This document shows, one piece after another, positions 181-64,000 of a DNA stretch of 64,000 nucleotides. Both the position numbers and the translations under genes were made by a program. Numbering within the stretch: position 1 is the stretch's first letter; the number at the start of each line of letters is the position of its first letter. The stretch is from Cordilura impudica. Its lineage: Eukaryota; Arthropoda; Insecta; Diptera; Scathophagidae. The stretch lies in the NCBI GenBank assembly GCA_963682025.1, contig OY821519.1, positions 111,169,764 to 111,233,763 on the forward strand. Reading direction: 5' to 3'. Below the pieces are notes generated by a model. That model did not search any database, was not told the origin of the DNA, and worked only from the letters and a program-made list of their open reading frames with translations.

Positions 181-960
181 TTTTTATACCCTATACCACT
201 ATGTGGTTTGGGTATAATGACTTTGTGCTGCTGTTTGTAACTACCAAAAATATTTGACCTAGACCTATCTGTTATTATACCGACCATATCAGAATCGCTA
301 TCTGATTCGATTTAATGATGTCCGTCCGTCCGTCTGTGTGTCCATGTAAAGCTTGTAATCAATGTGCAGGTCGCAAATATGAATATATTATCATGAAATT
401 TCGTATATAAGCTTTTACCGGCCATAGGATGAAGGCTATTGAAATTGGTGGGAATCGGTCCATGTTCAGACGTAGCCCCCATACAAATGACCCCTATGAC
501 ATCAACATAAATTGCCATAAGATCCAAATTATCATATAAATCTTAATCAAATTGGGTTTGTATGTGTTTATTACATCCATTAATTAGTAGTCTAAAAATG
601 ATTTCTATGGCACAACTCTTAGTCATAGGCCCCATATAGAGCTGCTTCCCGATCTTCACCTAAATCTATCAAAAAACAAAAATATTGCACTGATTCTTCT
701 CAAATTTTGTTTGTATATATTTTTGCAAAATACAAGAGACTTTACCAAACATGGTCAGGATCGGTCCATTTTTGGGCCTAGTCCCCATATATATATATCA
801 TCCGATATGAACTTTTTCATATCTGCAGCCAAAAAAATAAAAAAAAATCTCACTTAAATTTGATTTATGCTTATTTTCTACATTCTGAGAGATAGGGTCT
901 CCAAACGCATGGTGTAGGGTATCGTATAGTCGGTCTAGACCGACTATAATTTTCTCACTT
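181..960 (+). mobile_element. Family A copy A2, full length
   Basis: 5' TTTTTATACCCTATACCACT with the internal inverted GGGTATAATG. (GTCC)n lies at about 319-333. 3' GGTGTAGGGTATCGTATAGT, the palindrome and TTTTCTCACTT. About 780 bp, non-coding. Confidence 0.85.
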
Positions 961-991
961 GATTTTATTCTACTTTTTTTATACCTGGATA

Positions 992-16235: not shown

Positions 16236-16656
16236 AAATCTGTGATACGAAAAAATTTTAGAAAATCATTAACATTATTTAAAAATTTATAAAAAATATT
16301 GTATAATATAATAGATAATTGGGTAAGTAAATGTTGAATGCTGGATTGTAATCTTTAGAATGAGATAATAACCATAAAAATTTATTCAGATAATTCCAGA
16401 AATAATTTCGTTTTAAATTTTAAATGGTTCAAAGCGCATTCGTTTGTGTTTAGTTTCTTAACCGAGATAATGGAACTTTCCTTTTAGAAGGTCACCTGGC
16501 AAATGTGTGCATATTTTCTTATAATATTATTATTTATGCTTCGGAGTTGGTCTAACCATACACTGATTTTCACCAATTTCCATAGCGTTCGTCCTAAGGA
16601 CGATAGAAGCTTATATACAAAATGTCATCACAATATATTCATATTTGCGACCGTGG

Positions 16657-16695
16657 CACAGTGGCGCCCGTAGAGCAAACGACGTTGCAAAAATC
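16657..16695 (+). repeat. Left TIR: heptamer CACAGTG, 23-bp gap, GCAAAAATC
   Basis: CACAGTG (16657-16663) is identical to the consensus V(D)J signal heptamer. A 23-bp gap separates it from GCAAAAATC (16687-16695), which matches the signal nonamer consensus ACAAAAACC at 7 of 9 positions. The same nonamer-like block recurs in the right TIR. Homology to recombination signals is inference; the TIR match is seen directly. Confidence 0.8.
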
Positions 16696-17626
16696 AAAAT
16701 TTTCATGTGCGCCGACGAAGTTTTGAATAAACCCATAGGAAACTTTTCAGCGATTTCAAATATGCTACTCTTAATAATATCACCTTTTTAGTTTAGAAGA
16801 TATAACCGTTCAAAGTTGACCGACTTTCGGTTTTTAAAAAAACACACAATTTTTAGTCAATTTGTTGCGATTTCAGGTGTAATATCACGAAAAATAGGTA
16901 ACGAATCGCCCCATTTTTTACTTGTGTTGATCGATGTATTTATTAAATGTATAATGATAAAAAAAAATTAACTGTTTGCTTTGCGTTTCTCCTGGTAAAT
17001 CACTATTTAAAAACTATCCTTTTTTTTCACTATTTTTCAAATTTGACGGAAAATAAAAAAAATCCGTATTTTTCTATATTTGCCATATTTGCAAAACGTG
17101 TTCTTTGATTATTTCTTTACATAATTCAGAAGGTTTTATCTGCCCTTACGTGCCCGTTTGGCTTCTAGAGGTAAAAAAGCTTAAAAAGACATGGTTGCAG
17201 AAATTGTATGGCGTGCATCCCTTACATGTTTTGACTGACAGTAGTTTGATCTAATAGTTTGAAAATTGCATTTTAAGTCGGCTGTCTACCTGTCAGCCTC
17301 TGCCAAAGTCTACTCCCAATATTCTGTTACAGACACAGGATGCACAAAAAACTATTCATTGAAATTCGCAGGTACGCACCTCACTTAAAAATTACTTTGG
17401 AGTACAAATGGTCAAGAACAATATTGATTTATGGTCCCTCCAGGTAGGCACAAATCTTATTTAGACACGAGCATTATATCAAAATTGCATAATTCAGCCT
17501 AAATCCATATGTATGCAGGGAACAGGTAAATTTTTAGGCATGGTAGCGTAAGCCTATATATTGCAAAATAAGCATAATGCCTAGATTAGTCTACGACTGA
17601 AAGTTGGCGCAACAAGTACTGAAACC

Positions 17627-19606
17627 ATGGCGTTAAACAATTTAAGTACTGAAAACATGGCGATGAACAATTTAAAATTATTTGAACTGTTTAGAAGGTC
17701 AACCACACCAAAATTTTTCACGGAAGCTGCTTTAGAAGAACTTGTTAGATAATACGGAAATATTGAGAGAAGCGAAATTATAAAAAGTAATTTTTATCTG
17801 ATATATGCAAATATTAAGGCAAAATGGGTGAAATCTAATCGAACCATTCAGAAGTTCAACTCCAAATACGAGGACTGGCTTAATGAAGACACCATCCTGG
17901 ATATATTGGCAGTAGATAAACCCACCACATCAACCAGAGGAGCAAAAGGAAGGCCAAAAAAAAAAGTATTGAGGAGTGTTCAATTTTCACAAGAAAGAGG
18001 AAACTTGCCGATGCCACCAATGACTTGACCACGAAGCATTTATCGGACGCGCTGTCTATTAAATATACAAAGGATAGTGAAAGAGTTAGGTCGCAGATTA
18101 CAAAATCTGTTGCTGATGCAAGCCCACTGCGACTAAAAAGGATTAAGGAAAGCATTTCCACGCCCACAAACGCGCATTAAAAATTATGGTTCCGAAGAAG
18201 CCTTGGCCTTGTTTATGCACTTACAACTTTCCAAAGAAAAATATGAGATACTACGGGCATCCTTGATGCGACACGGGGCTGACGTTTTGCCAGGATACAA
18301 GCATATTACGCAAGCCAAAATAAATTCACGACCACTGCATACGGAGTTTACGGAAGTCTCTGTGAAAGCCAATCTGCAGGATTTCATGGGCCATCTCACG
18401 GTTGTTGGAGAGTCTTCCTGAAAATGAGGTGAAAATTCTTCCTGAGAAACTGACATTGATCAGCAAATGGGGCTGCGGTGGATCATCTGGACAAAGCGTT
18501 TATAAGCAAAGGATATCTTCCGATGACGCTACAATATCGGAAGGAAATATGTTTGTGGCATCTGTTGTTCCTTTGCGGCTAAAATCTGATGTTTCCCTAC
18601 ACTGGAAAAATCCACGACCAATAATGTTTCAGTTTGCAAGGGAATCGGCAGAACTCATAAGGACCACGGTGAAGGACATTGAAGAACAAATAAGCAAGAT
18701 TAAGCCTACAAAGCTGCAAATTGGAGAAGGAAAACATATTGAATGCAATTACGAGTTCCACCTGACCATGGTTGACGGAAAAGTCGTAAACGAACTGACA
18801 GGAACAACCTCAACATTGTCATGCCCGGATTGCAAAAAGAGTCAGAAGAACTTTGGTAATTTAAACGATTCTACAAACGAGGAGAATTACGAATATGGAA
18901 TGTCACCATTGCACGCAAGGATAAGGTATATGGAGTTCTTGTTAAAACTGGCGTATACCCTACCACAAGAGGAGGAAAACTTCGATGAAAATACATCAAT
19001 AAAGAATAAGGAAAAGATCAGAAGGAAGCAAATACAGGATGCTTTTTTTAAACAAGTTGGACTAAAAGTAGACTGTCCCAAGCACGATCAAACGATGGAA
19101 ACACTTCTAGGAGATTTTTTGAAAATGATGAGGCAGTAACTAGAATCACTGGAATTGACAATCAAATCGTGAAAAGATTGGGAACGATCTTGAATGTTTT
19201 AAACTGCAAAGAAAATGTCAATTCTACAAAATATGGAGAATATGCATCGAAAACTGCATCTTTTTTAGCAGAAATGTATCCACAGAAGAAGTTGACCCCG
19301 ACTGTCCATAAAATATTGGCGCATGGCAAAGATATAATTGAGTACCAATCTTTGCCAATTGGAGAGCTTTCTGAAGAAGCACAGGAGTCTCTTAACAAAT
19401 TTTATAAAAAATATAGATTGCAGAACACATTCAAAGCATCAAGGGTAAGGCAAAATGAGAACCTCTTCAACATGTTGGCAGCATCTTCCGATCCACTTAT
19501 TTCTTCCCTACGGCATGTGAAGTCACGAATAGAGTTAGAAAATAATTATAGTTTAGAAATGATTGGTGTTTTAGATACACCTTCTCTTACGAATTGTGAT
19601 GAATAG
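17627..19606 (+). pseudogene. Decayed RAG1-like (Transib superfamily) transposase
   Basis: Pieces in three frames join into one protein of about 650 residues with an RNase H-like DDE core. In order: an N-terminal region (MALNNLSTENMAMNN, from a 30-bp tandem duplication), a basic linker (GRPKKK), a helical region, the core motif WGCGGSSGQSVYKQ (about 18468), the RPIMFQFARES strand, MVDGKVVNELTG with the second catalytic Asp (18774-18776), zinc-type CPDC, SPLHARIRYMEFL, then TVHKILAHGKDII (H-x4-H) and LSEEAQESLNK with the likely catalytic Glu (19385-19387). The order and spacing of C-x2-C, H-x4-H and E match RAG1. Lesions: an in-frame TAA near 17749; frameshifts near 18000, 18170, 18400 and 19125; and GGT at 18477-18479 where relatives carry the first catalytic Asp. 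The longest open piece is 245 codons, so decay is moderate. Family recognition is from recalled motifs. Confidence 0.82.
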
Positions 19607-19899
19607 TTTACAGAAAATTTAAAAAATAAATTTAAAAAAGAAGTAATTTTTTTTAATTTGTTGGGTAATAATTTAACATAAAACCTAAAGAAAAAAAATA
19701 AAAACAATCTAAAAATGTAAAAATACTTTTTTTTTAGTTACCATAAAATTGATTTTTCTACAAATTTTAACTTTGATAACCCATAAGTAGGCCCCTGCAA
19801 AGCGTAGCACCCTTTCCAAACGCTCATTTAATAGGCTAAACAGTTATCTATCATATGCTGTTCAAACTGTTCAATTATGTTATTCGGTTCAAAAGATAT

Positions 19900-19937
19900 G
19901 ATTTTTGCAACGAAAAAACTCAAATGGCGACATTGTG
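19900..19937 (-). repeat. Right TIR: heptamer CACAATG, 22-bp gap, GCAAAAATC
   Basis: Inverted partner of the left TIR. On the minus strand it reads CACAATG (one transition from CACAGTG), a 22-bp gap and GCAAAAATC. The gap differs by one base from the left end, so the two ends are not a 12/23 pair. Confidence 0.78.
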
Positions 19938-20090
19938 CGTGGGCACACAGACGGACGGACACCGTAAAATCAACTCATCAAGTGATTCTGACTTAGAAAG
20001 TGATTCTGAGTTGATCGGTATAATGAAATATGGATATAGGTCAAACATTTTTGGTAGTTACAGACATCAGCACAAAGTTATTACACCCTA

Positions 20091-21800
20091 ACTTAGCTAC
20101 TGCCTTTTCAAAGCACACCCTATTCCAAAGGAAACCGGTTTACCGATTTTCTTAGCCCTACTTATGAACCAATTATCAAAAAATTCCAAAAAGTATAACT
20201 TTGTGATCATGTCCTTTGTCCTTTGGCAATTAAAATATCGCTACATGTCATTGTAAAGGATTTCTCAAAATTTTTCTTTAATGGGAGATTTCGCTCAGAA
20301 TTAAAGGCTAAAAAGATTTAAAATACACGAAATAATTCTAGATTGCTTCAGTCATTTATATGCGATACCAAGAGGATGAAATCAAAATTGGTTATTTTCT
20401 TCATTAAATAGAGTTTTTTTTATATATATATATTATTTTTTTTAATTTTATAAAAGTTTTTATTTAATTTTACATACACTTATTACACATCTTATCATTG
20501 TTGCACTTGGGAACTTTTGCCGAAACTGATGGTCTAGAAAATTGTTTACTGTTTTACGTGTTTAAATTATATATATTTACAAATTATTATACTCTTAACA
20601 GTTATGTTAATGCTAATAATACTATCATATATCATATTTCGTTCTGAAACTCGATCCCAATATTATTTCCTTTGTGGGCATTGTTTGAACAAAATATGAT
20701 AAAGAATGGTAGCCGTATATGAGGTGACATATGATGTGAAAAAAAAAATGAATATACCGGTGGTGGGCAATGAATAACCATGAATAGCAGGACTTTCAGT
20801 TGGACATACATACATAAAGTAAACAAACATTGACTTTTTGTTAAAGAAAAAGCCGCGTAAAATTTTAATGATAAATAAACACAAAAATGTAAATGTTTTA
20901 ATATTTATATTATTTACATAGATATACCAACTGTCCCAATTCCATTATGACTAAAGCTACAACTAAAGTTCAATAATTGCTTAGTGGTTACTTGAATTTT
21001 TTATTAGACCTTTCAGTAGATGTTATCATACTTTAACTGTAAATTTATCGAAAGTCAATACGAATTTAGGACAGACTGGAAAAGTTTATATATATTATTT
21101 AAAAACGTAATCGACCATTGGCGAGGCATACAAACAACTGATGTCATGGCAAATTGTTAACTGTGTTAAAGTGTTAAATTTATTGCACTGATATGGTTGA
21201 AATCCAATTCATATGTATTTGTAAACCATTGTTAGCTGGATGTATGCAAAGAATGTTTGCAAGCTACTCGTCTATATAAACGATTCACTCATTAACACTA
21301 ACCATATTCAAGTTAAATAAAGTATTTACTTGTTATTATTGCATGTTTTAAAAATAGCTTTATATGTACACGTTGAATGCCCTTTTTGAACTCCAATTTA
21401 TTTATTTGAGTCAATTGCTATTTATGGAGTATCAAATATCCAAAGCAGTTGTAAATATTAGAATAAATGCATTCCTTGTTTAGATAATAACACAGCCCCA
21501 TAAAATTTGAGAAACATCTATATCGTGGAACTAGACTATAATTTTTAAAGGTATCGAATCTGAATCTGAGCACAGAATTTCTACATCACATCAGGTATTA
21601 GCGATAGCTTAACATAAAAATATAAAATGAAACATTTTATTGTCTATATCCGAGTTATTATGACTGCGCAGGATCCTTTGCAAAATATTATCATTCACTA
21701 ATGATCTGCTTTTTTTAAACGGAAAATATGTCGTGTACAGCCAAAATGGGGTCTATTATCCCGAAATTAATAAATTATATATCTGTTTGAGGCTCAAGTC
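20091..21800. other. Unassigned stretch, possible LTR-like promoter block
   Basis: Non-coding AT-rich DNA. At 21275-21325 a TATATAAAC box is followed by AAATAAAG and a T-rich tract, the layout of a solo LTR or a small promoter, but no duplicated target or matching second LTR is visible. Confidence 0.3.
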
Positions 21801-22812: not shown

Positions 22813-23388
22813 AACAAGTAAGAAATTATAGTTATTTTTGAAAAAATAAATACAAACCAAATTTGAGAAAAATCTGTGCATTATTTTTGTTTTTGATAGA
22901 TTTAGGTGAAGATCGGGAAGCAGCTCCATATGGGGCCTATGACTAAGAATTGTCCTATAGGGATGATTTTTAGACTACTGATTAATGGATATAATAAGCA
23001 CATACAAACCCAATTTGACTGAGATCTTTATGATAATTTGGATAATTTGGCAATTTGTGTCGATTTCATAGGGGTCATTTGTATGGAGACTAGGTCTGAA
23101 CATGGACCGAATTTCACCAATTTCAACAGCTTTCATCCTATGATCGGCAAAAACTTATCTGTCAAATTTCATCAAAATATATTGTTATTTGCAACCTGTA
23201 GTTTGATTACAAGTTTTACATGGACACACCGAAGAACGGACGGACGGACGGACAGACGGACGAAAATCGCCAAATCGACTCAGAAAGTGATTCTGAGTCG
23301 ATCGATATAATAAAAGATGGCTTTAAGTCAAATATTTTTGGTAGTTGCAAACAGCAGCACAAAGTCATACCCAAACCACATAGAGTCG
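22813..23388 (-). mobile_element. Family A copy A6 (internally deleted)
   Basis: Starts AACAAGTAAGAAATTATAG, loses the palindrome and the next 200 bp or so, then continues TTTGATAGATTTAGGTGAAG to (GGAC)n at about 23237-23262 and the CAGCACAAAGTCA end. Confidence 0.75.
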
Positions 23389-23812
23389 CAAACAAGTAAA
23401 AAAATTATAGTCGGTCTAGACCGACTATACGATACCCTATACCATGCGTTTAGAAACCCTATCTCTTAGGCCCAACTAACTGGACATAGAAAATAAGCAA
23501 AACCAAATTTGAGTGGGATTTTTATTAATTTGGCTGCAGATATGAAAAAGTTCATATCGGATGCTATATCTATATGGGGACTAGGACCGATCCTGATCAT
23601 GTTTGGTAAAGTCTCTTGTATTTTGCAAAAATATATACAAACAAAATCTGAGAAGAATCAGTGCAATATTTTTGTTTTTTTTTATAGATTTAAGTGAAGA
23701 TCGGGAAGCAGCTCTATATGGGGCCAAAGGGGTCATTTTTGGACTACTCATTAATGAACGTAATGAACGCATACAAAACCCAATTTGAGTAAGATCTATG
23801 TGACAATTTGTT
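23389..23812 (-). mobile_element. Family A copy A7 (5' truncated)
   Basis: Abuts A6 directly: AACAAGTAAAAAAATTATAG, the palindrome, GATACCCTATACCATGCG. It stops at about 23812 before the (GGAC)n part. Confidence 0.75.
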
Positions 23813-24147
23813 TCTTTAGACAAACACAAAAGGTACAGAACACGGTACACAAAAGGCTCTGTATGTTTGGATGCATATTAAATATAACAATTAAAAGCAC
23901 TAAATCCGGCTTTGAATCCCTCCACCTGTATCTTAAACTCAATATTATAAGAAATTCTTCATTTTTAAATTATAATAATATTTAAATTTAATCAGTGCAT
24001 GTATAATAGTAGCTTATTTATTGTTTTTGATGTGTATTTCACAATACAATCACAAAAACAGCGTAACATGTAAGCCGTAAGACAAAATTGATGTGACTTA
24101 TGATTGTATTGGTGAAAAAAATATGATATGTAATAACCTGTTTGAAA

Positions 24148-24271
24148 ATGAAAAATTAAAAATTAAAAATGAAAAATGGAAAATAAAAAATAAAAAATGA
24201 AAAATATGGAATGGAAAACAAAAACTAAAAATGAAAAATAAAAAAAGAAAAATTAAAAATGAAAAATAAAG
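24148..24271. repeat. GAAAAAT-type A-rich tandem tract, left part
   Basis: Degenerate repeats of GAAAAATTAAAAAT/GAAAAATAAAA. The same tract resumes at 25069 beyond copy A8, so A8 landed inside it. Confidence 0.7.
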
Positions 24272-25068
24272 AAGTAAGAAAATTATAGTCGGTCGAGACC
24301 GACTATATGATACCCTATACCATGCGTTTAGAGACCCTATCTCTTAGGCCCAACTAAGTGGATATAGAAACTAAGCATAAACTAAATTTGAGTGGGATTT
24401 TTATTAATTTTTTCGGCTGCAGATATGAAAAAGTTCATATCTGATGCTATACCTATATGAGGACTAGGCCCAAAAATGGACCGATCCTGACCATGTTTGG
24501 TAAAGTCTCTTGCATTTTGCAAAAATATATTCAAACAAAATATGAGAAGAATCAGTGCAATATTTTTGTTTTTTGATAGATTTAAGTGAAGATCGGGAAG
24601 CAGCTCTATGTGGGACCTATGACTAACAGTTGTCCCAGGGATCGTTTTTAGACTACTCATTAATGGATGTTATAAACGCATACAAACCCAATTTGAGTAA
24701 GATCTATATGACAATTTTAATCTTATGGCAATTTATGTCGATTTCATAGGGGTCATTTGTATGGGGGCTAGGTCTGAACGTAGACCGATTCTCACCAATT
24801 TCAATAGCGTTCATCCCATGGCCGACAAAAGATCAAATACCAAATTTCATCAAAATATATTCATATTTGCGACCTGCAGTTTGATTACAAGCTTTACATG
24901 GACACACAGACGGACGGACGGACGGACGGACAACGTTTAATCGAATCAGATAGTGATTCTGATTCGATCAGTACAATTAAAGATGGGTGTAGGTCAAATA
25001 TTATTGGTTGTTACAAACAGCAGCACAAAGTCATTATACCCAAACCACATAGTGGTATAGGGTATAAA
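24272..25068 (-). mobile_element. Family A copy A8, full length
   Basis: AAGTAAGAAAATTATAGTCG, the palindrome with one change (GGTCGAGACC), (GGAC)n at 24910-24931, and CACATAGTGGTATAGGGTAT at the other end. Confidence 0.85.
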
Positions 25069-25462
25069 AACGAAAAATAAAAATGAAAAATGAAAAATTA
25101 AAAATGAAAAATAAAAAAGGGAAAAATTAAAATTGAAAAATAAAAATGAAAAAAAAAATAAAATATAAAATAATAAATGAAAAATAAAAAATAAAAAATA
25201 TAAAATAAAAAAAGAAAAATAAAAAATGAAAAATGAGAAATGAAAAATTAAAAGTTGAAAATAAAAAATAAAAAATGATAAATGGAAAGTAACAAATAGA
25301 AAATGAAAAATAAAAATAAAAAATAAAAAATTAAAAATGAATATTGAAAAATGAAAAATTAAAAAATTAAAAATTCAAAAATTCAAAATGAGAAATAAAA
25401 AATGAAAAAAGAAAAATAAAAAATTAAAAATGTAAAACGAAAACTGAAAAATGAAATATAAC
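25069..25462. repeat. GAAAAAT-type A-rich tandem tract, right part
   Basis: About 390 bp of near-continuous purine-rich repeats built from AAAAATGAAAAATAAAA units, the continuation of the tract at 24148. Confidence 0.75.
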
Positions 25463-27046
25463 AAGTAAGAAAATTATAGTCGGTCTAGACCGACTATACG
25501 ATACCCTATACCATGCGTTTAGAAACCCTATCTCTTAGGCCCAACTAACTGGACACAGAAAATAAGCAAAAACCAAATTTGAGTGGATTTTTATTATTTT
25601 TTTTGGCTGCAGATATAAAAAAGTTCATATCGGATGCTATATCTATAAAGGGGCTAGGTCCAAAAATGGACCGATCCTGATCATGTTTGGTAAAGTCTCT
25701 TGTATTTTGCAAAAATATGTACAAACAAAATTTGAGAAGAATCAGTGCAATATTTATACCCTATACCACTATGTGGTTTGGGTATAATGACTTTATGCTG
25801 CTGTTTGTAACAACCAAAAATATTTGACCTACACCCATATTTAATTATACCGATCGAATCAGAATCACTATCTGATTCGATTTAACGAAGTCCGTCCGTC
25901 CGTCCGTCCGTCCGTCCGTCTGTGTGTCCATGTAAAGCTTGTAATCAAACTGCAGGTCGCAAATATGAATATATTTTGATGAAATTTGGTACGTGAGCTT
26001 TTATCGGCCATGGGATGAACGCTATTGAAATTGGTGAGAATCGGTCCATGTTCAGACCTAGCCCCCATACAATTGACCCCTATGAAATCGACTTAAATTG
26101 CCATAAGATACAAATTATCATATAAATCTTATTCAAATTGTATGTGTTTATTACATCCATTAATCAGTAGTCCAAAAATTATCTCTATGGGACAACTCTT
26201 AGTCATAGGCCCCATCTAGAGCTGCTTCCCGATCTTCACTTAAATCTATCAAAAAACTAAAATATTGCACTGATTCTTCTCAAATTTAGTTTTTTGTATA
26301 TATTTTTGCAAAATACAAGAGACCTTACCAAACATGGTCAGGATCGGTCCATTTTTGGGCCTAGTCCCCATATAGATTTAGCATCCGATATGAAATTTAT
26401 CATATCTGCAGCCAAAAAAAATTAAGAAAAATCCCACTCAAATTTGGTTTATGCTTATTTTCTATATCCAGTTAGTAGGGTCTGAGAGATAGGATCTCTA
26501 AACGCATGGTATAGGGTATCATATAGTCGGTCAAGACCGACTATAATTTTCTTACTTGTTTTGTTTTTTAATAGATTTAACTGAAGATCGGGAAGCAGCT
26601 CTATATGGGATCAAAGGGATCATTTTTGGACTACTCATTAGTGGATGTAACGAACGCATACAAACCCAATTTGCGTAAGATCTATATGACAATTTGGATC
26701 TTATGGCAATTTATGTCGATTTCATATGGGTAATTTGTATGGGGGCTAGGTCTGAACATGGACCGATTCTCACCAATTTCAATAGCGTTCATCCCATGGC
26801 CGATAAAAGCTTATACACCAAATTTCATCAAAATATATTCATATTTGCGAGCTGCAGTTTGATTACAAGCTTTACATGGACACACAGACGGACGGACGGA
26901 CGGACGGACATTGTTAAATCAACTCAGAAAGTGATTCTGATTCGATCGGTATAATTAAAGATGGGTCTAGGTCAAATGTTTTTGGGTGTTACAAACAGCA
27001 GCACAAAGTCATTATACCCAAACCACATAGTGGTATAGGGTATAAA
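25463..27046 (-). mobile_element. Family A copy A9, split by A10
   Basis: Minus-strand copy with its 3' part at 25463-25754 (palindrome; to AATCAGTGCAATATT) and 5' part at 26561-27046 (from GTTTTTTAATAGATTTAACT to GGTATAGGGTATAAAAA). Intact relatives read GCAATATTTTTGTTTTTTGA at the junction. Confidence 0.85.
25755..26560 (+). mobile_element. Family A copy A10 nested in A9, full length
   Basis: TTTATACCCTATACCACTAT at the left, (GTCC)n at 25890-25919, and the palindrome with TTTTCTTACTTGTTTT at the right. Inserted within the T-run of A9 with no clear duplication, the expected behaviour of Helentrons. Confidence 0.88.
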
Positions 27047-27075
27047 AACATTGTATAATATATATTGTATTAAAA

Positions 27076-28896
27076 ATGTCGGAACCGAAATGTAAAATGG
27101 ACCATTTTTTTAATGTTTATGGACGTTTCATAGCAAACGATGAAAAATGTGGCAATGCGAGCGATTCTTTTTTTTTGGAAGCCTATAAACAATATTTCTC
27201 TCAGGAGTTTATCATTGACGTAAACTATGCCCCTAAAAAATTTGCGTTAATTGCTATTCAACTCTTATGCAATGGAAAAGTGAAAAGAAGAAGGCTATGC
27301 CTTTTGGTATACCAATGATGTGGTTAGACAACAGCCCGCATCAAGAAGAATATTGCTATGGATGTATCAACTACCATAAAACTTTGAATAGAAGGAAAGC
27401 AAAGAATAAAACTTATGTAGCAGTGCCAAGTGTCCAATTACCATTACCTCACACAAAATTCATTCCAGTACCAACATACCGAAGTATTGATCTTTAAACA
27501 GATATTAGTACTACAACCGCCGCTGCTACATCCATGGATTTTTTCTCAGAATACGACCCTCGTGAAGGTACATGCCATGAAACATCAAAGGACCCAGTCC
27601 TAGTCACACAAAACCAATTGGATGGAATTGTTGCCAATTTGTGTTTGACTCAGAAAAAATCAGAACTACTAGCTTCATTTTTGAAAGGAAATAATTTTCT
27701 GGCGAAAGGTACCAAAGTAACAGCATATCGAAAACCCCAAAAAGAGTTAGAAAAGTTCTTCAATGTGAATGATGCAAAAAATTTCGCTTATTGCAATGAT
27801 ATTGAAAAGTTAATGGAGATGATAGGGTTATCCTATAAAAAAGATGATTGGCATTTATTCTTGTGCTTTTGCACAAGACAAATAGAATGCCTTCTGTTCC
27901 GGTTGCGTATAGCACTGACACTAGTGAAAATTCCGATAATTTGAAACATATTCTGGAAGTAGTCAAATATAACGAACACCACTGGTGCATTTGCTGCGAC
28001 CTCAAAACAGTTTCATTGATTACAGGCTTAACAGCATCTGGCCGTCCAAAATATCCTTGTTTTGTGTGCGATTGGGATTCACGATACGGATAAGGTATTA
28101 AAGGAAGAAACCAGTACAAACAGCATAACTGGAATAGTCGCATTGGACGGAAATTGCCTAAAGAAAATAGGCTACATGAAAGTCCTGTTCCTGAAATGAA
28201 AATTTTGTTGCCGTTGCTCCACATTAAACTTGGCATTGCTAAAAATTTTTTGAAATGTATCGCAAAAAGACCAGCAGTATTCAACCGCTTAAAAGACATT
28301 TTTAATGGTCCTGACATACGGAAACTAATGAGTCGTCAAGATTTTGACCAAGTTCTGACAGACCGAGAATTAAATGCATGGCTCGCATTGAAAGCAGTCA
28401 TTAAAGGACTTTTGGGTAAAGAACGCAAAGGCAACTACAGGCAATCCGTTGCAAACATGTTGGCAGCTTTCGATAAAATTGGGGCTAATATGTCATACAA
28501 ATCTGAATCTGATGAGCATGGCGAACGTTATCACCAAACTGCGCTTCCATTTGAAATAAGGTAACTATAGAGTGTGCATATTTTGAATTCCTAGATTTTT
28601 CTAATATCTTTGTCAGAGTGCACAACTTAAACATTTTCGTTTCAGGTACAGAGGAAAGAAATCTCCAGATGCAAATACTCGCTGAAATTTGTTGGTGGTA
28701 TAAAAACACCTTTGAAGAAGAGGAAGACGAAGAAAAAGAGGAAAAACGGGAAGGCAAAGATGAAATTCTAGAATATCTGTTGGACGAAATTATCGACCTT
28801 TCTGATGATGATGACGATGACCAAGATATTAGAGAGAGCAGTGATGTTGATCCACAGCCGCCTGCGAAACGGCAATTGGCCAAATCATTAATTTAA
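27076..28896 (+). pseudogene. Decayed transposase-like gene of a widespread arthropod family
   Basis: Pieces join into a protein of about 590 residues that I recognise as a repeated, mostly uncharacterised arthropod family; its superfamily name I cannot give. Landmarks: N-terminal FFNVYGRF (relatives have FCxVCG, so both Cys are lost here); MPFGIPMMWLD...EEYCYGC (27295-27365); WHLFL then VLLHKTNRMPSVPVAYST (27850-27915); LEVVKYNEHHWCICCDLKTV (27955-28015); GRPKYPCFVCDWDSR (28040-28085); LLPLLHIKLGIAKNF (28205-28250); GPDIRKLM; ANMLAAFDKIGANMSYK; SDEHGERYHQ (28510-28540); an intron; YRGKKSPDA and LAEICWWYKN; and an acidic tail ending PPAKRQLAKSLI. Lesions: frameshifts near 27300, 27850 and 28665, stops at 27497 and 28091, and a missing segment between NMSYK and SDEHGER. 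Conserved Asp and His/Glu suggest DDE-type chemistry, which is inference. A family A repeat abuts its 5' side. Confidence 0.72.
28561..28645 (+). other. Intron within the 27-29 kb transposase pseudogene
   Basis: GTAACT at 28561 and TTTCAG ending at 28645 bound an 85-bp intron. Splicing joins GAAATAAG to GTACAGAGG, restoring E-I-R-Y-R-G across the junction, the expected reading in relatives. Without splicing the frame stops at once (TAA 28562-28564). Confidence 0.65.
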
Positions 28897-37865: not shown

Positions 37866-38116
37866 TTTTTTAGCCAAAACCAAAATTGCCCACAAAAACT
37901 TCATGCCAGGTGGACTCAATTAAGTCTTCAGGCCTATTCCAAAGAGCGCATTTCACACTATTCGATCCTGCATTGTTTCATTTTTTTAATTTTAAACTAT
38001 TTTACACATTGTGCTTTTGATTTACATATTAAACTTTAACACAATATTCAGAATTTTCTTTCTTTTTTTATTTTTAAGAAGTGACCTAATAAATAAAACT
38101 TCAGTCAGAGTAACCA

Positions 38117-38830
38117 TTTTTATACCCTATACCACTATGTGCTTTGGGTATAATGACTTTGTGCTGCTGTTTGTAACCACCAAAATTATTTGACCTAGAC
38201 CCATCTTTTATTATACCGATCGACTCAGAATCACTTTCTGTTTGTCCGTCCGTCTTTGTGTCCATGTAAATATTTTAGTCAAACTACAGTTCGCGAAACT
38301 GAATATATTTTGATGAAATTTGGTATATAATAATTCAGACCTAGTCCCCATACAAATGACCGCTATGAAATCGACATAAATTGCATTAAGATCCAAATTA
38401 TTAAATAGATCTAAGTCAAATTGGGCTTGTATGTGTTTATTATATCCATTAATCAGTAGTCCAAAAATTATTCCTATAGGACACTTGTTAGTCATAGACT
38501 GCTTCCCGATTTTCACTTAAATTTAAAAAAAAAAAAAAAACTGCACAGATTTTTCTTAAATTTGGTTTTCATATATTTTTTTCAAAATATAAGCGATTTT
38601 ACCAAATATGGTCAGGATCGGTCCATTTTTCGATCCAGTCCCCATATAAATATAGCACCCGATATGAACTTTTTCATATCTGCAGCCCAAAAAAATTAAT
38701 AACATTGCCACTCAAATTTGGTTTATGCTTATTTTCTATATCCAATTAGGTGGTCCTATGAGATAGGGTCTCTAAACGCATGTTATATGATATCGTATAG
38801 CCCGTCTTAAACGAGTATAATTTTCTTGTT
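38117..38830 (+). mobile_element. Family A copy A11
   Basis: TTTTTATACCCTATACCACT to a degraded palindrome (CCGTCTTAAACGAGTATAAT) and TTTTCTTGTTTT. The (GTCC)n tract is short. Confidence 0.78.
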
Positions 38831-38876
38831 TTATTTGTAAAAAGTGACATAATAAATAAAATTTCAGTCTGACTAA

Positions 38877-39486
38877 CCATTTTTATACCCTTTACCACCA
38901 TATGGTTTTGGTATAATGACTTTGTGCTACTGTTTGTAACTACCAAAAATATTTGACCTAGGCCTAACTAGTGTTATACCGATCGACTCAGAATCACTTT
39001 TTGAGTCGGTTTAGCGATGTCCGTACGTCTATCCGTATGTGTGTCCATGAAAACTTTGTAATCAAACTACAGGTTGCAAATATGAATATATTTTAATGAA
39101 ATTTCGCTCGTAAGCTTTCATCATTCATGGGATGAACGCTGTTGAAATTGATTAAATTCGGTCTATGTTCAGACCTAGTATGTATGGGGATACAAATGAC
39201 TTCAATTTCCATAAGATCCAAATCATCAAATAAATCTCGGTCAAATTGGGTTTGTGTGTGTTTGTTACATCCATTTATTAGTTGTCCAAAAATAAACCAC
39301 ATATGGCCATTCTTTGTCATAGCCCCCATATAAAGGTGCTTCCCGATTTTCACTTAAATCCATCAAAAAACAAAAATATCGCACAGATTTTTCTCAAATT
39401 TGTTTTTCATATATTTTTTTCATAATATAAGTGATTTTACCAAATACGATCAAGATCGGTCTATTTTTCGACTTAGTCCCCATAAA
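38877..39486 (+). mobile_element. Family A copy A12 (3' truncated)
   Basis: ATTTTTATACCCTTTACCAC start, GATGTCCGTACGTCTATCCG, truncated after GACTTAGTCCCCATAAA where A13 begins. Confidence 0.75.
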
Positions 39487-40166
39487 ACAAGTAAGAAAAT
39501 TATCTAGACCGACTATCTGGATATAGAACTGTATAACTGGATGTAGAAAATAAGCATAAACCAAATTTGAGTGGGATTTTTATTAATTGTTTCGGCTGCA
39601 GATATGAAAAAGATCATATATCTTTACGGGGACTAGGCCCAAAAATGGACCGATCCTGACCATGTTTGGTAAAGTCTCTCGTATTTTGCTCTATATGGAG
39701 CCTATGATTAAGAGTTGTCCAATAGGGATTATTTTTGGACTACTGATTAATGGATGTAATATATACATACAAACCCAATTTGACTAAGATTTGTATGATA
39801 ATTTGGATCTTATGGATGTATATGTTGATTTCATAAGGGTCATTTGTATGGGGGCTAGGTCTGAACATGGACCGATTCTCACCAATTTCAACAGCGTTCA
39901 TCCCATGGCCCATAAAAGCTTATATACCAAATTTTATCAAAACATATTCATATTTGCGACCTGCAGTTTGATTACAAGCTTTACATGGACACACAGACGG
40001 ACGGACGGACGGACGGGCAGACGGACATTGTTAAATCAACTCAGAAAGTGATTCTGATTCGATTGGAATAATTAAAGATGGGTTTAGGTCAAATATTTTT
40101 GGTTGTTACAAACAGCAGCACAAAGTCATTATACCCAAACCACATAGTGGTATAGGGTATAAAAAT
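39487..40166 (-). mobile_element. Family A copy A13
   Basis: AACAAGTAAGAAAATTATCT (palindrome partly deleted) through (GGAC)n at about 39996-40027 to CATAGTGGTATAGGGTATAA. It joins A12 and A14 without a gap. Confidence 0.8.
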
Positions 40167-40460
40167 ATTGCACTGATTCTTCTCAAATTTTGTTTGTATA
40201 TATTTTTGCAAAATACAAGAGACCTTACCAAACACGGTCAGGATCGGTCCATTTTTGGGCCTAGTCCCCATATAGATATAGCACCCGATATGAAGTTTTT
40301 CATCTGCATCCAAAAAAAATTAATAAAAATCCCACTCAAATTTGGTTTATGCTTATTTTTTATATCCAGTTAGTCGGGCCTGAGAGACAGGATCTCTAAA
40401 CGCATGGTATAGGGTATCGTACAGTCGGTCTAGACCGACTATAATTTTCTTACTTGTTTT
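40167..40460 (+). mobile_element. Family A copy A14, 3' half
   Basis: TATTGCACTGATTCTTCTCA to the intact palindrome and TTTTCTTACTTGTTTT. The 5' half is missing or displaced by A13. Confidence 0.78.
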
Positions 40461-41734
40461 AGATTGATTATTTTCATGCGATTGTTACTGATGAAAATCT
40501 ATAATATTTTTAATTATTAAAACGTGAGCACTATTTCAAGATACCCTCACCATATAGTGGTAAAGGGAATATAAAAATCTATCGTTTAGAATACAGATAT
40601 TATCCAATGAATCATTGATGTTTCCATACCCTTTACTATACTACAATTGACATGGCACAAGCTATCATATTGTCGGTTTTGATCGAGTTTTGCTAAGTTC
40701 AGAAAAACTTTAATTTGTTTTTAGTTTTTTTCCCACTACAGTATTTTATATTTTTTAAATCCATAATTTCAAACTAGCTACATTTTTACTAAATTTAAAA
40801 CCTGTACACTTTCCAATTATTTAATCATTTGTAACAAATAGCTTTATATAAAATAGCTACTTACGTAAAGTGATAGCATTCTTTACCTATCCGTTACTAT
40901 TATAGAAAGATATTTATTTGTTTTATAGTTTGCATTTAATTTGTTTATATTTTTTACTTAATTCTGAAAACAATTGTAAATTATGACCTGTTATAACATT
41001 AAACAAAAATTACAATTATTTAACTTAAAAATATCGTTGCAAATAAATCTTTTTGCACTATTTAAATCATATAAACAAATTATAAATTAAGCCTCAATTT
41101 GTTTCCATATTTAAAAAAAAATTAAATTACAGTTAAAAGTCAATAATGGCTGCAAGCAATTAACAATAATGTTGTACTACAAATATCACGTATCATCATG
41201 ATTAAATACATATAATATGTGTGATATATGTATTTATGTATATTATATATAATTGTACTTATACTACAGTGGGCAGAACTTTAAATCATCCAAATTGCTG
41301 ATTCTTTGAATGAGCTTAACAAAAGGACGAAAAAGACAAAAAGCTTATGTGTATTCAAAAGCCATGTAAGACTTCAAAAATTCAATGATACCGCCGCCGA
41401 AAAACCACACTAAAAGGTGCATCGCTTAGGGTGCATTGGCTTCTCAGTAGTCATGTGTGAATTTTCTGTGCCGCAAATGCGACAATTTTGCTTGTTTACG
41501 TGGCCACCGAAAGCAATAACCGACTAAGTCGAATATCATGCTTTTAAGAAAAATATCTTTTTATATAAATGTAATGGGTCTTCATTACGACTTTGGCCAG
41601 CATGTTTTCATTTATAACTTTATAATAAACAGTGATGGAGAAATAGGGATTTAACGTAAATATAGAGCGTTTTTAATAGAACATGATAGCATACATAACT
41701 CAAATCATTCTTAAGTCGACTTAGGCGATTATCG

Positions 41735-44439: not shown

Positions 44440-46066
44440 ATTCTATAGTCGACAAAATTGGCAAGGATGAAACTTCCGACGACTGCACCAAATGTATTAT
44501 GGAAAAAGTGCGTATTTTTTGTAAAAGGTGTCAGAAATATGGATGACATATGGCAAAAGTATTGTGAAGGACAAAAGGGGTGAAAGAAGAGAGTATGTTA
44601 CATGGCTCAACACTTAAATAAGTTTCGAATATAAAAATACATCTGGCAAAATGACTTTTTCTACTCTTGCACATCCCCAACTTCCATTTTGCAAAAAGTC
44701 TGAGTACGGAAAGAGAAAAGCGGCAGCAGATCTTTCCAACGCACCAAATAATCAAATTGACTTTTTGGTTCGTGCGGCAGCAATGTCAGCTCAAAAACAA
44801 AAAAATTCAGATTTAGCGGCTTTCAAAAGTAAAAAATAGTGTAGTGAAGTCCATAAAAAAAACCGTTGCATTATCTGCGATGGAAGCATTAGCTTTTTTG
44901 CTCGAAAATAATTTCACCAAAGAATAGTACAAAGCAATACGTCGAGAAAGAAAATGAATATACTGCGACAATTAACCTCATTACAGCGAAATTGCTGCTG
45001 CAAAATTAATGTGCCGTCCTGATGGTGTAAGAGCCAGCGAGGCAGCAGCAAGAGTACCCTTGGAATCGATTTTATCACATACCACTAAGAGAATTCTTCA
45101 ACTGCAGAAGGAGGTATTTGAAGGTGTTATTTGATAAGGAAAATACCAGTTATTTAAAGTTAGTAAGTTAGAGTTAATTGATACTGAGTTACGGTTTCGA
45201 TAGTAGCACTGCTCAAGCGTTATTTAAACAAGTTTTTAACGAGCCGAGCACATCGAATTAATCTTATGAGACGGTTCTGGCAACTACAATTATCCCGTTA
45301 AGGCGAACAGCCTAGTTGGAATTATATTACTTCGCAATCGACAAGTTTTTGTCGGCCCGTTAAGTAAGAATACGTGAAGGAAACAAAGGAATCTATCTTG
45401 AAAGAAGAATTAGAGTTGAAAAACGAAATTGACGCATAAAATATATGCACATTACGATTAGCGAAGGAGAATTTGCGGTACTGTCCTTTAAGTTATATTT
45501 AACACTTATTGACGAGAAAGTTTTAACATTTGAGCTGGAACCAAATCAAATAAAACTTGCCCTATTTACGGTTCCACACCGAAGGACTTCAAGAATAGTT
45601 ATAAGTGGTTACATATGTTAAAGACTTCGTGCAGCAATTGTAAATTTGGACTGAGCCCATTGCATTCTGAAAACGTGTGGAGAGAACTAGGTCTTCGTGT
45701 GGATATGCCTAAAGTTGGCGGCTTTTGCAGCACATATGACCGAAACACTGTGTCTAGAGCATTCACTGATCAGGATATCATTTCTTACATTATGGGCGTT
45801 TATCAAAAATTAATTTTCCGTTTTAAAATTATATTAATTTTTTGTCATGCCAATTTCCTTTGAACTCTAGAATATTTGATTCGTTTTGCTTTCAAACAGT
45901 TGAAATTATCCAAAAGCTTTATCCTTGCTTGCCGATGACAGCAAACAAAGTGTTTATACAATCCAAGCAGATTATTGGCAACACTGTGCTTCCGATTAGT
46001 TTCTTCGGAGAAGCAGGTGCTGAGTCCTGGCACAAAATTTATAAATATGTTTTTATAGGTGCGTGA
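44440..46066 (+). pseudogene. Second, heavily decayed RAG1-like transposase
   Basis: Many short pieces in different frames follow the same protein order as the 17.6-19.6 kb element. They are: a basic KRKAAADL region followed by FLVRAAAMSAQKQKNSD (44650-44840); EALAFLLENNFTK (about 44885); CRPDGV and ARVPLESILSHTTKRI (45010-45100); STSFCRPVK and VKETKESILKEE (45350-45410); the SCSNCKFGLSPLHSE zinc/core segment (45625-45675); VDMPKVGGF...DRNTVSRAFTDQDI (45700-45780); and PMTANKVFIQSKQIIGNTVLPISFFGEA (45925-46015), equivalent to the H-x4-H to Glu region. The His ligands and the Glu motif are degraded, and segments between SPLHSE and the next block are missing. I found no CACAGTG-type ends or duplication for this copy. 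It is not the same sequence as the first copy; it is a separate, older relative. Confidence 0.68.
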
Positions 46067-48302: not shown

Positions 48303-49180
48303 ATCTATAAATATAAAATTAATTTTCTGTTTGTTTGTTTGGCCACTATACAAATTTTTATTTTTCAACGAATTTCTCTGAAATTTGGTTCACAAGATCT
48401 CTGTACTCCGCAAAAGGTCGCCGTATGCTTTCTATCGGCCACGCCTACTTTTACGTCCACTTTTTGTATACAATTAATTTTCTGTTTTTTGGTATATTTG
48501 TTCGCTACACAAATTTTTATTTTTCAACGGATTTCTCTGAAATTTGGTACGCACAATCTCTGTAATCCAGACAAGGTAAATATGTGACTCTTAAGGCCAC
48601 AACTACTTTTACACCCACTTTTTATACAAAATTAATTTTCTGTTTTTTGGTATATTTGTTTGCTATAAAAATTATTATTTTTCAAAGGATTTCTCAAAAA
48701 TTTGGTACACACGATCTCTGTACTCCAGGAAAGGTTGCCATAGAATTCTTACCAGCCACGCCTACTTTTGCGCGCACTTTTTGTATACAATTCATTTTCT
48801 GGTTTTTGGTATATTTGTTCGCTACACAAATTATTACTTTTCAACGGATTTCTCTGAAATTTGGTACGCACTATTTCTGTACTCCAGGCAAAGGCGCCAT
48901 ATGCTTCTTATCGGCCACGCCTAATTTTGCGCCTACTTCTATGTATACAAAATTAATTTTTTTTTTTTTTCCTTTTATTTGTTTCTTTGTTTGACTGCTA
49001 TACAAACTTTTATTTTTCAACGGCTTTCTCTGAAATTTTGTACAATATATCCTTCTCTCCACACCTACCTTTACGCCCACTTTTTCATAAAACTCATTTT
49101 CTGTTATTTGGTACATTTGTTCGCTATACAAATTTGTATTTTTCAACGGATTTCTCTGAAATTTGGTGCAAACGTGAATA
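48303..49180. repeat. Tandem array, period about 159 bp
   Basis: The motif TTTCTCTGAAATTTGGTAC recurs with its AAATTTGG at 48381, 48540, 48698, 48857, 49033 (AAATTTTG) and 49159. Spacings are 159, 158, 159, 176 and 126. Each unit also has GTATATTTGTTCGCTACACA and CCACGCCTACTTTT. Open stretches here come from the repeat and are not proteins. Confidence 0.85.
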
Positions 49181-51085: not shown

Positions 51086-52291
51086 TATATATTTAATTTC
51101 ACTTTAGTTGAAATCTATGATGGCATTATGTTAGGTGGTACCTATAAGTGCTTGTAAACCTTTATTTACAGGTAGGAAAAAATATTTAATTTTAAGATAA
51201 CCAAAATGGTGGCCAACATAATCCAAAGTCACTTTCAGCTAATAAAATATCCAAATAATAATATAAACAAAATATAAAATATATCGCATGGTATAAATAT
51301 TAATGAAAAAATCTTATACAATATATAAATAATATACACATAATTTTCAATTCCAAAGTAGGAAAATCGCAAAAAAAAAAACAAGGTCATCATTGCCCTC
51401 TGAAGAGAAGAGAAAAAATAACTATGTACGTCATCAATTAATACAAAATCTTACTAAAAACTGTGACTCATTCAATCTAATTATCTTTTTCAATAAGAAA
51501 CTGAAAAATAAGTACTAATGTACAGCGCAACTAAATGAGATAATGAGAGAAAAATTACTCTAAAAGATACTTTCGTCATCAAGTAGACTCATAATTATAG
51601 CGCTAACTGTATGAATAAATTGTATATAAAGATCATTCAATGAAAGAGATAGGTATAGGTGCCAACAAGTCATGTTTATTATTGATGTTTAGCAGAAGAA
51701 AAGAGACAAGTGTAAAGTAGAGCAACAAGTACAACTATATGTAAGCAAAAAAGTATCTATAATTTATTTTTTTAGGGTAGATATCTTTGGGATATTTGCT
51801 TGTGTGTATGAGCGAGTGATTTTTCATGCTCACTTCTAAATGCTAGCTTAGTTAATGCAGTGATTTCAAAGTGTTTGGGTGTGTTTAAACACAAAAATAC
51901 AAGTGTAACAACTTAAAAATTTATTTGAGTATCTCGCTGATACCTTCGTGGTGGCTCATAATTCAATAACAATAGCAGAAACTAAAAAAAAAAACACCTG
52001 AACAGTCAACTTAAATAATATAAAATTATATATGTTAGTTAAAATGTTAAACAAAATTTTTTTTTTTAAATAACGATTGTATAATCATAACGGCAGCTGG
52101 TTTTTTAAAAAACAATATTCTATGCTAATAAAAAAAAAAAAAAACGTCATACAAAATTAAACAACCCACATAGAAGCGATTAACAGCCAGCCATATCCAG
52201 ACAAAAAAAAAAAAACATTTGGCTGCAAAGAAAATTTAATTTAAAATTATTTGGATTTAAACAAAGAATATTTTCTAAATAGAAGTACAAT
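51086..52291 (+). other. Upstream region of Rac
   Basis: AT-rich, free of recognisable repeats for about 1.2 kb, so a plausible place for the Rac promoter or 5'UTR. No specific promoter element can be supported. Confidence 0.4.
52281..52282 (+). promoter_or_regulatory. Possible 5'UTR splice acceptor upstream of Rac
   Basis: A TTTTCTAAATAG stretch ending here, ten bases before the start codon, could be a 3' splice site joining a distant 5'UTR exon. It is weak, without a strong pyrimidine tract. Transcript data would decide it. Confidence 0.2.
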
Positions 52292-52870
52292 ATGCAAGCC
52301 ATCAAGTGTGTAGTTGTGGGTGATGGCGCTGTGGGTAAAACCTGTCTGCTGATAAGCTACACCACCAATGCCTTTCCCGGAGAATATATACCAACTGTCT
52401 TCGATAACTATTCTGCTAATGTAATGGTTGATGCTAAACCTATTAATCTGGGTCTATGGGATACAGCCGGTCAAGAAGATTATGATCGCTTACGACCACT
52501 CTCCTATCCCCAAACTGATGTATTTCTTATTTGTTTTTCGTTGGTTAATCCAGCTTCATTTGAGAATGTTCGTGCCAAATGGTATCCAGAAGTGCGTCAT
52601 CATTGTCCCCATGTACCAATTATCTTGGTAGGCACAAAGTTGGATTTGCGTGACGATAAGGCCACCATTGAAAAGCTGAAAGACAAAAAACTCACACCCA
52701 TTACCTATCCCCAAGGCTTGGCCATGGCTAAAGAAATAGGAGCTGTCAAATATTTGGAATGTTCGGCTCTTACACAAAAAGGTTTAAAAACAGTATTCGA
52801 TGAAGCTATAAGATCTGTACTTTGCCCTCTTATACGTATGCCAAAAAGACGCAAATGTTTCATATTGTAA
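52292..52870 (+). CDS. Rac2: Rac family small GTPase (Rac1/Rac2 type)
   Basis: A complete 192-residue Rho-family GTPase of the normal Rac length. It switches actin dynamics (lamellipodia, axon guidance, phagocytosis, cell fusion) at the inner plasma membrane. Visible motifs: P-loop GDGAVGKT (residues 10-17), effector loop YIPTVFDNY (about 32-40), switch II DTAGQED (57-63), the base-specifying TKLD (115-118), a Rho insert region around 120-135, and SAL (about 158-160). The tail [10 protein letters not shown] has a polybasic stretch and a CaaX box ending in Leu, predicting geranylgeranylation. From memory the body is nearly identical to Drosophila Rac1/Rac2 and the RxPKRxKC tail resembles Rac2 more than Rac1; the paralogue call is less sure than the family. 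The coding sequence is uninterrupted, so any introns lie in the UTRs. The start is the conserved [12 protein letters not shown], with A at -3. All flanking sequence is non-coding. Confidence 0.95.
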
Positions 52871-56806: not shown

Positions 56807-57579
56807 TAAGAAAGTTATAGTCGTTCTAGACCGACTATACGATACCATGGTTTAGAGACCCTATCTCTTCGGTCCAACTAATTTGGTATAGAAAATAAGC
56901 ATAAACCAAATTTGAGTGCCATTGTTATTAGTTTTTTGGCTGCAGATATGAAAAAGTTCATATCGGGTGCTATATTTATATGGGGACTAGGTCGAAAAAT
57001 GGACCTATCCGGATCATGATTGGTAAAGTCTCTTGTATTTTGAAAAAATTTACAAACACATTTTGAGAAGAATCAGTGCAATATTTTTGTTTTTTGATAG
57101 ATTTAAGTGAAGATCGGGAAGCAGCTCTATATTGGGCATATTACCAAGAATTGTCCTATAGGGGTTATTTTTGGACTACTGATTAATGGATACAATAAAC
57201 ACATACAAACCCAATTTGATAAAGATCAATATAATAGTTTGGATCTAATAGCAATTTATTTCATAGAGGTCATTTGTATGGGGAGTAGGTCTGAACATGG
57301 ACCAATTTTCACTAGTTTCAACAGTGTTCATCCTATGGCTAATTAAAGCGTACAAAACAAATTTCATCAAAACATATTCATATTTGCGACCTGTAGTTTG
57401 ATTACAAGGTTTACATGGACACACAGACGGACGGACGGACATCGCTAAAACGACTCAGAAAGTGATTCTGAACTGATCGGTATAATAAAAGATGGGTCTA
57501 AGTCAAATATTTTTGGTAGTTACAAATAGCAGTACAAAGTCAATATATCCAAATCACATAGTGGTGTAGGGTATAAAAA
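56807..57579 (-). mobile_element. Family A copy A20, full length
   Basis: AACAAGTAAGAAAGTTATAG, hairpin with one change (TCGTTCTAGACCGA), (GGAC)n at about 57428-57440, and CACATAGTGGTGTAGGGTAT. Confidence 0.85.
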
Positions 57580-57704
57580 TATATACTAGTAATATATTAA
57601 CATGGATATAATTTCGAAGATAAGGAAAAGTTAGAAAACCCAATGACTCAGAGAAAAAAAAAATAATATAACCCATAAAAACGAAATTTTTATTAAAACC
57701 CTTT

Positions 57705-61455: not shown

Positions 61456-62708
61456 TATATATAAAAAATTTATGAATCTTTAAAAGAGCCTAAAGATTTG
61501 TTCACTAATTTTAGCAAGTCAGAGTTCCACACAGAGCGTCTGGTATATAATTTAAATCATTCGCATTAACAGGGTGTAACGAATTATTATAAATATTTTA
61601 TTTTATTTAATTTAATATTCTTTTAAGATAGATTAAACATAAATTTTATCATTCTCAACTTCTCCTCTATATGAACTATAACTGTGCCAATTTCCACCCT
61701 CCTCCGTGCCCACATATTGCTTAAACAGGGAACGAAAAATTTATCTTCACGTATTAATATATAGATTTTAGTTTAGAAACTTACAATATGAATTAATTGA
61801 AAACCTTAAACAAGTTCAACTTAAAATTATTTATTTATCAAAATTGAAATTTAAAAGGATTGAAAAGCTATTTCAAAGCTTTAAACATCTTGTAGTTGAT
61901 TCATTAACCCCATAATTCGTACGATGAAAATCTGCATAAAATAAACGCCTGTGACGTAAATCGCGATAAGGAGTATGAACCCTCACTAAATCGGACAAAG
62001 CACCACACCATATATTATTTGTTAAAATAATAAATATAAACATTATAGCAAATGATGGTCTACGATCTCTTAAAAATTGGAGTCCTAGAAATTAAAAATT
62101 AGAGTGCTTCCATAAGAAAGAACATCGACGGACCTATTTAGTTTTTTAAATGCTAATTTCGAAATAATAAGAACTTCAGATTAAAGAACATTCTTCCAAA
62201 TTACTTCTAACGAAAGAAACATATAATGATTTTAATGCGAAAGGGTCACTAAAGTCCGCAGTATTTCGTTTAATGAATCTCAACATTGCTTACGTTTTAG
62301 ATGTTATGTAATTTATATGATTATGAAATTTCTACTCGGAATCAAAAATAACTTCTAAACCTTAAACTTCACCAACTCTCTCAAGAGTGACATCACTTAT
62401 AATGTAGTTATAAAAAACTGGATTATGAACATTTCTGTGGTTTTCTGGAATAACCACGTATGTCCATTTTTGTCACTTTTTAAGTTAACGATGCCAAATA
62501 TAATAATTTTTAACGCTCTTTAATAGTGTTTAATTTTTTTTTTTAAATATTGACCATTTCTGAGTTTTTTCTTTAAATAACGACGTAACTTAAATGTTTA
62601 TTAAATTAATTTGCAGCACTAACGACGTATGTCAACCTACGTTTGATCGCTGACAAATTATTTTCTCAGAAAACGACACATAGCGACATACGGTGTTATA
62701 TATGAAAA
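61456..62708. other. Unassigned non-coding stretch
   Basis: Between family F and copy A21. No feature that I can support. Confidence 0.5.
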
Positions 62709-63502: not shown

Positions 63503-63559
63503 AAAATGCAAAATATTTTTGGATTATTTTCAGTTTATAACCACTTATAAAAACTGTTG

Positions 63560-64000
63560 TTATACCCTATACCACTATGTGGTTTGCGTATAATGACTTT
63601 GTGCTGCTGTTTGTAACAATCAAAAATATTTGACCTAGACCCATCTTTAATTATACCGATCGAATCAGAATCACTTTCTGAGTTGATTTAACAATGTCCG
63701 TCCGTCCGTTCGTCCGTCTGTGTGTCCATGTAAACCTTGTAATCAAACTGCAGGTCGCAAATATGAATATATTTTGATGAAATTTGGTACATAAGCTTCT
63801 ATCGGCCATGGGATGAACGCTATTGAAATTGGTGGGAATCGGTCCATGTTCAGACCTAGCCCCCATACAAATTACCCATATGAAATCGACATAAATTGCC
63901 ATAAGATCCAAATTGTCATATAGATCTTACTCAAATTGGGTTTGTATGCGTTCATTACATCCATTAATGAGTAGTCCACAAATGATCCCTTTGACCCCAT
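63560..64000 (+). mobile_element. Family A copy A22, cut by window end
   Basis: GTTATACCCTATACCACTAT, (GTCC)n at about 63695-63718 and the usual interior, running off the window before its 3' hairpin. Confidence 0.85.

Follow-up and report, generated by a model that had tools for sequence, protein, structure and literature searches.

The question raised by this locus is whether a complete element of 3281 bp (positions 16657-19937 of the window, by which we mean the whole 64,000-nt stretch of Cordilura impudica DNA analysed here) belongs to a little-described RAG1-like lineage, as the initial annotation had suggested, or to a known kind of transposon. The V(D)J recombinase is accepted to be related to Transib. 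The CACAGTG/CATTGTG inverted ends and the exact 5-bp GC-rich duplication previously described for the element were both recovered: it starts at 16657 with CACAGTGGCGCC, its right end read inwards is CACAATGTCGCC, and on the forward strand it closes with CATTGTG, whose last base is 19937, between two identical copies of CGTGG (Table 1). Most simply, the CATTGTG end is a decayed CACTGTG. Only one of the eight CACARTG/CAYTGTG pairs lying 0.5-8 kb apart in the window has identical 5-bp flanks, and it is the element's own pair. A 13-nt exact block, CGTTGCAAAAATC, which was absent from the earlier description, is common to both ends (16683-16695 on the plus strand and 19900-19912 on the minus strand). 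The nonamer-like GCAAAAATC falls inside this block and matches the RSS nonamer ACAAAAACC, as the latter is given in the excerpts of PMC8289069, at seven of nine positions. The local alignment score of the two 60-bp ends was matched by 117 of 20,000 random 60-mer pairs from the repeat-rich window, so the inverted repeat taken alone is only moderately unusual; what makes the element certain is its exact duplication, together with its further copies in the genome. Symmetric 20-22-bp spacers between the heptamer and a nonamer-like block have already been shown for Transibs (figure legend of PMC8355894), and nonamer similarity is described as little or none in most Transib families in the excerpts of PMC8289069; as far as these parts of the two papers go, the ends of the window element are at the limit of what is known for Transibs.

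Table 1. Features of the element and its flanks, in window positions.
Feature	Position	Strand	Remarks
Left flank, dispersed repeat	16549..16652	+	Insertion site; 7 copies of the stretch in the window, its own included
Left target-site duplication CGTGG	16652..16656	.	Exact match to right flank
Left heptamer CACAGTG	16657..16663	+	Equals the RSS consensus heptamer as given in the excerpts of PMC8289069
Left terminal inverted repeat	16657..16695	+	Heptamer, 23-nt spacer, nonamer-like GCAAAAATC at 16687-16695
Broken Transib transposase gene	17627..19606	+	Pieces in three frames
First conserved Asp codon, Gly here	18477..18479	+	GGT, versus GAT in 6/6 other copies read
Second conserved Asp (TMVDGK), present	18774..18776	+	Asp in 112/115 relatives, gap in 3
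SEEAQES block with conserved Glu residues, present	19370..19390	+	
Right terminal inverted repeat	19900..19937	-	Heptamer CACAATG, 22-nt spacer, nonamer-like GCAAAAATC
Right target-site duplication CGTGG	19938..19942	.	Exact match to left flank
Right flank, continuation of dispersed repeat	19991..20092	+	8 copies of the stretch in the window, its own included

The element sits inside one copy of a dispersed repeat with many direct and inverted copies in the window (293-981, 22959-27061, 38059-40462, 57043-57592 and 62706-64000), some of which contain GTCC/GACG runs. When the flanks were joined, they aligned to other copies of this host repeat on both sides. Among the alignments shown, no perfect empty site was found in the window paralogues, and about 23 nt were missing at the join relative to several other repeat copies. 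This suggests, from the alignments, that the element probably inserted into a shorter version of the repeat.

The transposase gene had been described as decayed, and this was borne out: its pieces match Transib, and the frame is broken by one in-frame stop and four frame-shifting indels, with one in-frame deletion in addition. The four frame-shifting indels are absent from the six other copies that were read. The core contains conserved Asp, Asp and Glu residues, which we take to be catalytic and which are kept in the family. The first one is Asp in 114 of 115 relatives and is lost in the window copy, where the sequence reads WGCGGSSGQSVYKQ, with Gly at the position for which the initial annotation had quoted D. 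We infer that the window copy makes no working enzyme. A 30-bp tandem repeat at 17614-17675 is common to all seven copies compared (see below). The joined translation, with X at the breaks, matched HzTransib with an E value of 2.4e-73 (query 187-633 to chain 8-462), and the two protein pieces alone matched it with E values of 1.3e-25 and 5.3e-33. HzTransib was the sole PDB sequence found at E 0.01 or better for the joined protein. The entries concerned, 6pqn and five others, are HzTransib of Helicoverpa zea; their depositors name the protein a DNA-mediated transposase. A Pfam search of the protein revealed nothing above the cut-off except a RAG1 stretch.

A first search for relatives gave 115 matches among 7994 candidates scored. 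The closest of these was an unnamed transposase from a 2.1-kb ENA contig (P0001), with 91% identity over 66% of the query and 93% over 419 columns. P0002 and P0003 followed with 57% identity over 97% of the query, and the nearest named relative, from the fly Eurosta solidaginis (P0010), had 55% identity over 60%. A quick tree was made from the window sequence and 109 of the 115 relatives and rooted on P0098 by choice. In this tree the window sequence pairs with P0001, within a group of six rows that also holds P0010, P0002, P0003 and P0008 (support 99). Because neither RAG1 nor HzTransib was included, the tree is silent on RAG-like versus Transib placement. The initial annotation had also likened the protein to a WGxDGSSGQSxYKQ branch more than to a typical fly Transib. 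The exact motif was found in 12 of the 115 first-search relatives (30 of 222 overall), and 10 of these 12 fall in the window's own 15-row tree group, so the clustering of the motif in this branch was confirmed. Considering that the group is Transib, the motif marks a group within Transib, and the proposal of a separate RAG1-like lineage is not supported. With looser motif classes, the first 115 relatives comprised 54 with SQQ, 44 with SSGQ/H, 9 without WGxDG and 8 others, and a stricter count gave 54 with SQQ versus 41 with SSGQ/H. The corresponding numbers for all 222 were 57, 122, 10 and 33. WGxDGSSGQ/H was rejected as the commonest form in spite of its 122 of 222, because the second search (120 of 194 matches listed) was seeded with such aligned relatives and SQQ leads in the first 115. 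A Stomoxys calcitrans relative from the second search (P0176) has WGCDGSSGHSEYHQ in place of the motif.

The whole genome (1,486,481,460 bases in 855 contigs) was searched for further copies. The whole element matched 39 other places with 93-97% identity over the main stretch, with 40 of 3231 first-look candidates scored; two further rows were second stretches of copies already listed. The right-hand 538 bp matched 39 other places with 95-96% identity, with 40 of 560 candidates scored, and 36 of these matches reach the last base. The two lists, which hold the best matches to the window element and not random samples, overlap by eye only in the window, which gives at least 78 other places with 93-97% identity. 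This near-absence of overlap suggests that the family has several hundred copies. Matches stopping at query position 1738 were at first sight truncated copies, an explanation rejected on finding that L031 continues to 2989 and has the right end and that L032 continues to 3092; a small deletion in the window copy at this point is the likelier cause of the stop. Six other copies were fetched and compared with that of the window. The seven copies have pairwise identities of 91-98% and private substitutions of 0.65-4.25% (1.62% in the window copy), the figures for L030, L032 and L034 being inflated by partial or flanking DNA. The reading frame is broken in all seven, and thus no working source was seen among them.

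Of the 39 right-end copies, 20 were also sampled: their right ends were fetched, and the left end was sought within the fetched 600 bp. The right heptamer is CACAGTG in 19 of the 20. The left end was located in 17, with CACAGTG in 12, a variant heptamer in 4 and the heptamer outside the fetched stretch in 1, and the left-end layout with its nonamer-like block is similar in the sampled copies. The initial annotation had proposed looking for further copies that share both ends and have 5-bp duplications, and these were found: for the 16 copies with both flanks, the two 5-mers agree at 5/5 positions in nine, 4/5 in five, 3/5 in one and 0/5 in one, and three of the fetched copies (L029, L031 and L033), inspected by eye, have CGTCG, CGACG and CGCTG, respectively, on both sides, that is, 5/5 in 3/3. 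The right-flank 5-mers of 24 copies (the 20 sampled, the window, L029, L031 and L033) fit CGNCG exactly in 14 cases, with C in 20, G in 21, mixed letters, C in 19 and G in 23 at the five successive positions. The window's own CGTGG is not an exact CGNCG.

These results bear on what the element is and on how it came to be broken. CACAGTG heptamers would also be carried by a RAG-like transposon of the RAGL/ProtoRAG type or by a little-described lineage intermediate between Transib and RAG1, and some RAG1 similarity was detected: the Pfam RAG1 model scored 25.3 bits on the C-terminal piece (cut-off 25, E 5.4e-06) and 24.3 bits, under the cut-off, on the joined protein, and RAG1 chains matched the C-terminal piece with an E value of about 2e-3. 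However, the match to the RAG1/Transib core for which the initial annotation had called was strongest by far on the Transib side. A profile of 23 relatives, built without the window sequence, scored 611 bits on HzTransib, about ten times the 57 bits on ProtoRAG RAG1L and the at most 54 bits on RAG1. In addition, only about 330 bp (19607-19937) follow the transposase gene, not enough to hold a convergent RAG2-like gene, and no second long open frame of the element appears among the listed ORFs; a convergent RAG1L-RAG2L gene pair was thus not seen. A RAG-like lineage was rejected on the profile scores, and we consider it very improbable; although the description of the element as a RAG1-related transposon with RSS-type heptamers was right, its placement in a little-described RAG1-like lineage is unsupported. 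Apart from the homology, nothing speaks for a RAG1-like gene domesticated to serve the host. With transposon ends, a duplication and many copies, together with broken frames and Gly for the first conserved Asp, this idea was rejected as well and has hardly any probability left.

A passenger family, whose long copies make no working transposase themselves and are mobilised in trans by another Transib of the same genome, fits the breakage of all seven copies, the presence of other Transib families close by and the fact that some breaks are common to copies (of 27 frame-shifting indel runs, 5 are found again in another copy, and the in-frame stop at 17750 is also found in copy L034). Nevertheless, 22 of the 27 runs, the window's four included, occur in a single copy, and all six other copies retain the first Asp, as is expected of decay after insertion. 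We therefore regard passengers as unlikely, though less so than the two readings above. The best explanation is that the window element is a dead copy of a many-copy insect Transib DNA transposon family, to which we assign a probability of about 0.96. What was observed in its favour are the ends and duplications, the target preference among the sampled copies, the protein homology, the large number of copies and, in the window copy, the lost first Asp and reading frame. Points against it are that 1 of 16 copies is without a duplication, that only 9 of 16 duplications are perfect, that the copies were chosen from the best matches, that every copy read is broken, that the window paralogues offer no perfect empty site and that the window's CGTGG departs from CGNCG.

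The family was presumably once active. Its relatives appear to encode a single transposase of about 660 residues, and nick-hairpin-excision chemistry is known from HzTransib and RAG work. Judging by its homology to HzTransib, the transposase would bind both ends and nick beside the heptamer, hairpins would form on the flanking DNA as the element is excised, and insertion into a GC-rich, CGNCG-like site would create the 5-bp duplication.

Protein comparison over 264 kb (the window plus the surrounding 200 kb) revealed seven Transib transposase loci, the element included. Another of the seven, a far more diverged Transib remnant, lies at 44817-46057 (+) of the window, with pieces 29-44% identical to P0087; no ends were found for this remnant. 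Three neighbouring Transib-like elements within 100 kb of the window belong to different families and have CAC(A/T)(A/G)TG ends: one from L017:7778 to L018:2788, with convincing ends and flanks CGGTG/CGGTA (4/5); one at L020:3804-5536, with convincing ends and flanks CAATG/CAATG; and one at L022:3974-6855, with convincing ends and flanks CGGCG/CGGCG, which does not span the whole of the merged transposase match at that locus. The L012 locus has one AT-rich candidate end pair, which is not convincing, and no ends were found for the transposase locus near the L021/L022 border. Of eight 3-kb loci sampled where CACAGTG first occurs in C1, two (L005 and L006) gave clear Transib matches and one (L007) a weak one. 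CACAGTG occurs at 118,847 sites in the genome versus 71,793 for the reversed word; the two words differ in dinucleotides and no inference was drawn. There is about an even chance, in our judgement, that this genome is unusually Transib-rich, with several diverse families that account for a visible share of its DNA, one of which has hundreds of long copies with RSS-consensus heptamers at each end and a CGNCG preference. If true, this would run against the view, expressed in the part of PMC4411706 consulted, that an autonomous Transib usually occurs as a single copy or as a few copies at most.

The window contains several other features. Arrays of AAAATGA/AAAAATG-type heptanucleotides and a 159-bp tandem repeat of about four copies occur at 24145-25456 and 48346-48969. 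Two open stretches close to each other at 27498-28564 (+), one of 148 aa and one of 156 aa, have no Pfam match at E 0.01. A single-exon open frame of 195 aa at 52283-52870 (+) belongs to the Ras family (E 1.7e-52) and is presumably like Rac.

No description of the window's Transib family was found in the full-text literature consulted, which covered title lists, the openings of abstracts and passages of selected papers, mostly from outside subscription journals. The window copy itself is a case of ordinary transposon decay, and the abundance of its family is the part that deserves a second look. Such a family, with many copies, CACAGTG at either end, an A-rich block 22-23 nt further in and a marked target preference, would be a good natural data set for studying the choice of ends and targets by RAG-type transposases.

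Judged by sequence comparison, the element is a Transib: it has the core homology, the CAC-heptamer inverted repeats and the 5-bp GC-rich duplication, and it is of a known kind, not a new lineage. P0001, although incomplete at 450 aa, probably belongs to the same family, whereas P0002, P0003 and P0010 of Eurosta solidaginis represent separate families in spite of standing in the window's six-row group. HzTransib can be aligned with the core from end to end, including the conserved Asp, Asp and Glu blocks, but it is a distant relative, and the window copy differs in the Gly at the first Asp. According to the sections seen of PMC7204232, Transib is told from RAG1 and RAG1L by low identity and by the lack of the RAG1 N-terminal region. 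With RAG1/RSS and ProtoRAG, as described in the excerpts of PMC8289069, the element shares the RSS heptamer CACAGTG and 5-bp GC-biased duplications; it differs in its low sequence match, in having no RAG2-like gene that could be seen and in having no asymmetry of 12 and 23 spacers, its own being 23 and 22. The likeness to hopper and Transib2 of Drosophila melanogaster lies in the 5-bp duplication, and the target of hopper is clearly GC-rich in the available text of PMC3276498. The same text gives CCANTGG as the target of both elements, and by this comparison, of target descriptions and not of proteins, the window family has a CGNCG-like target instead.
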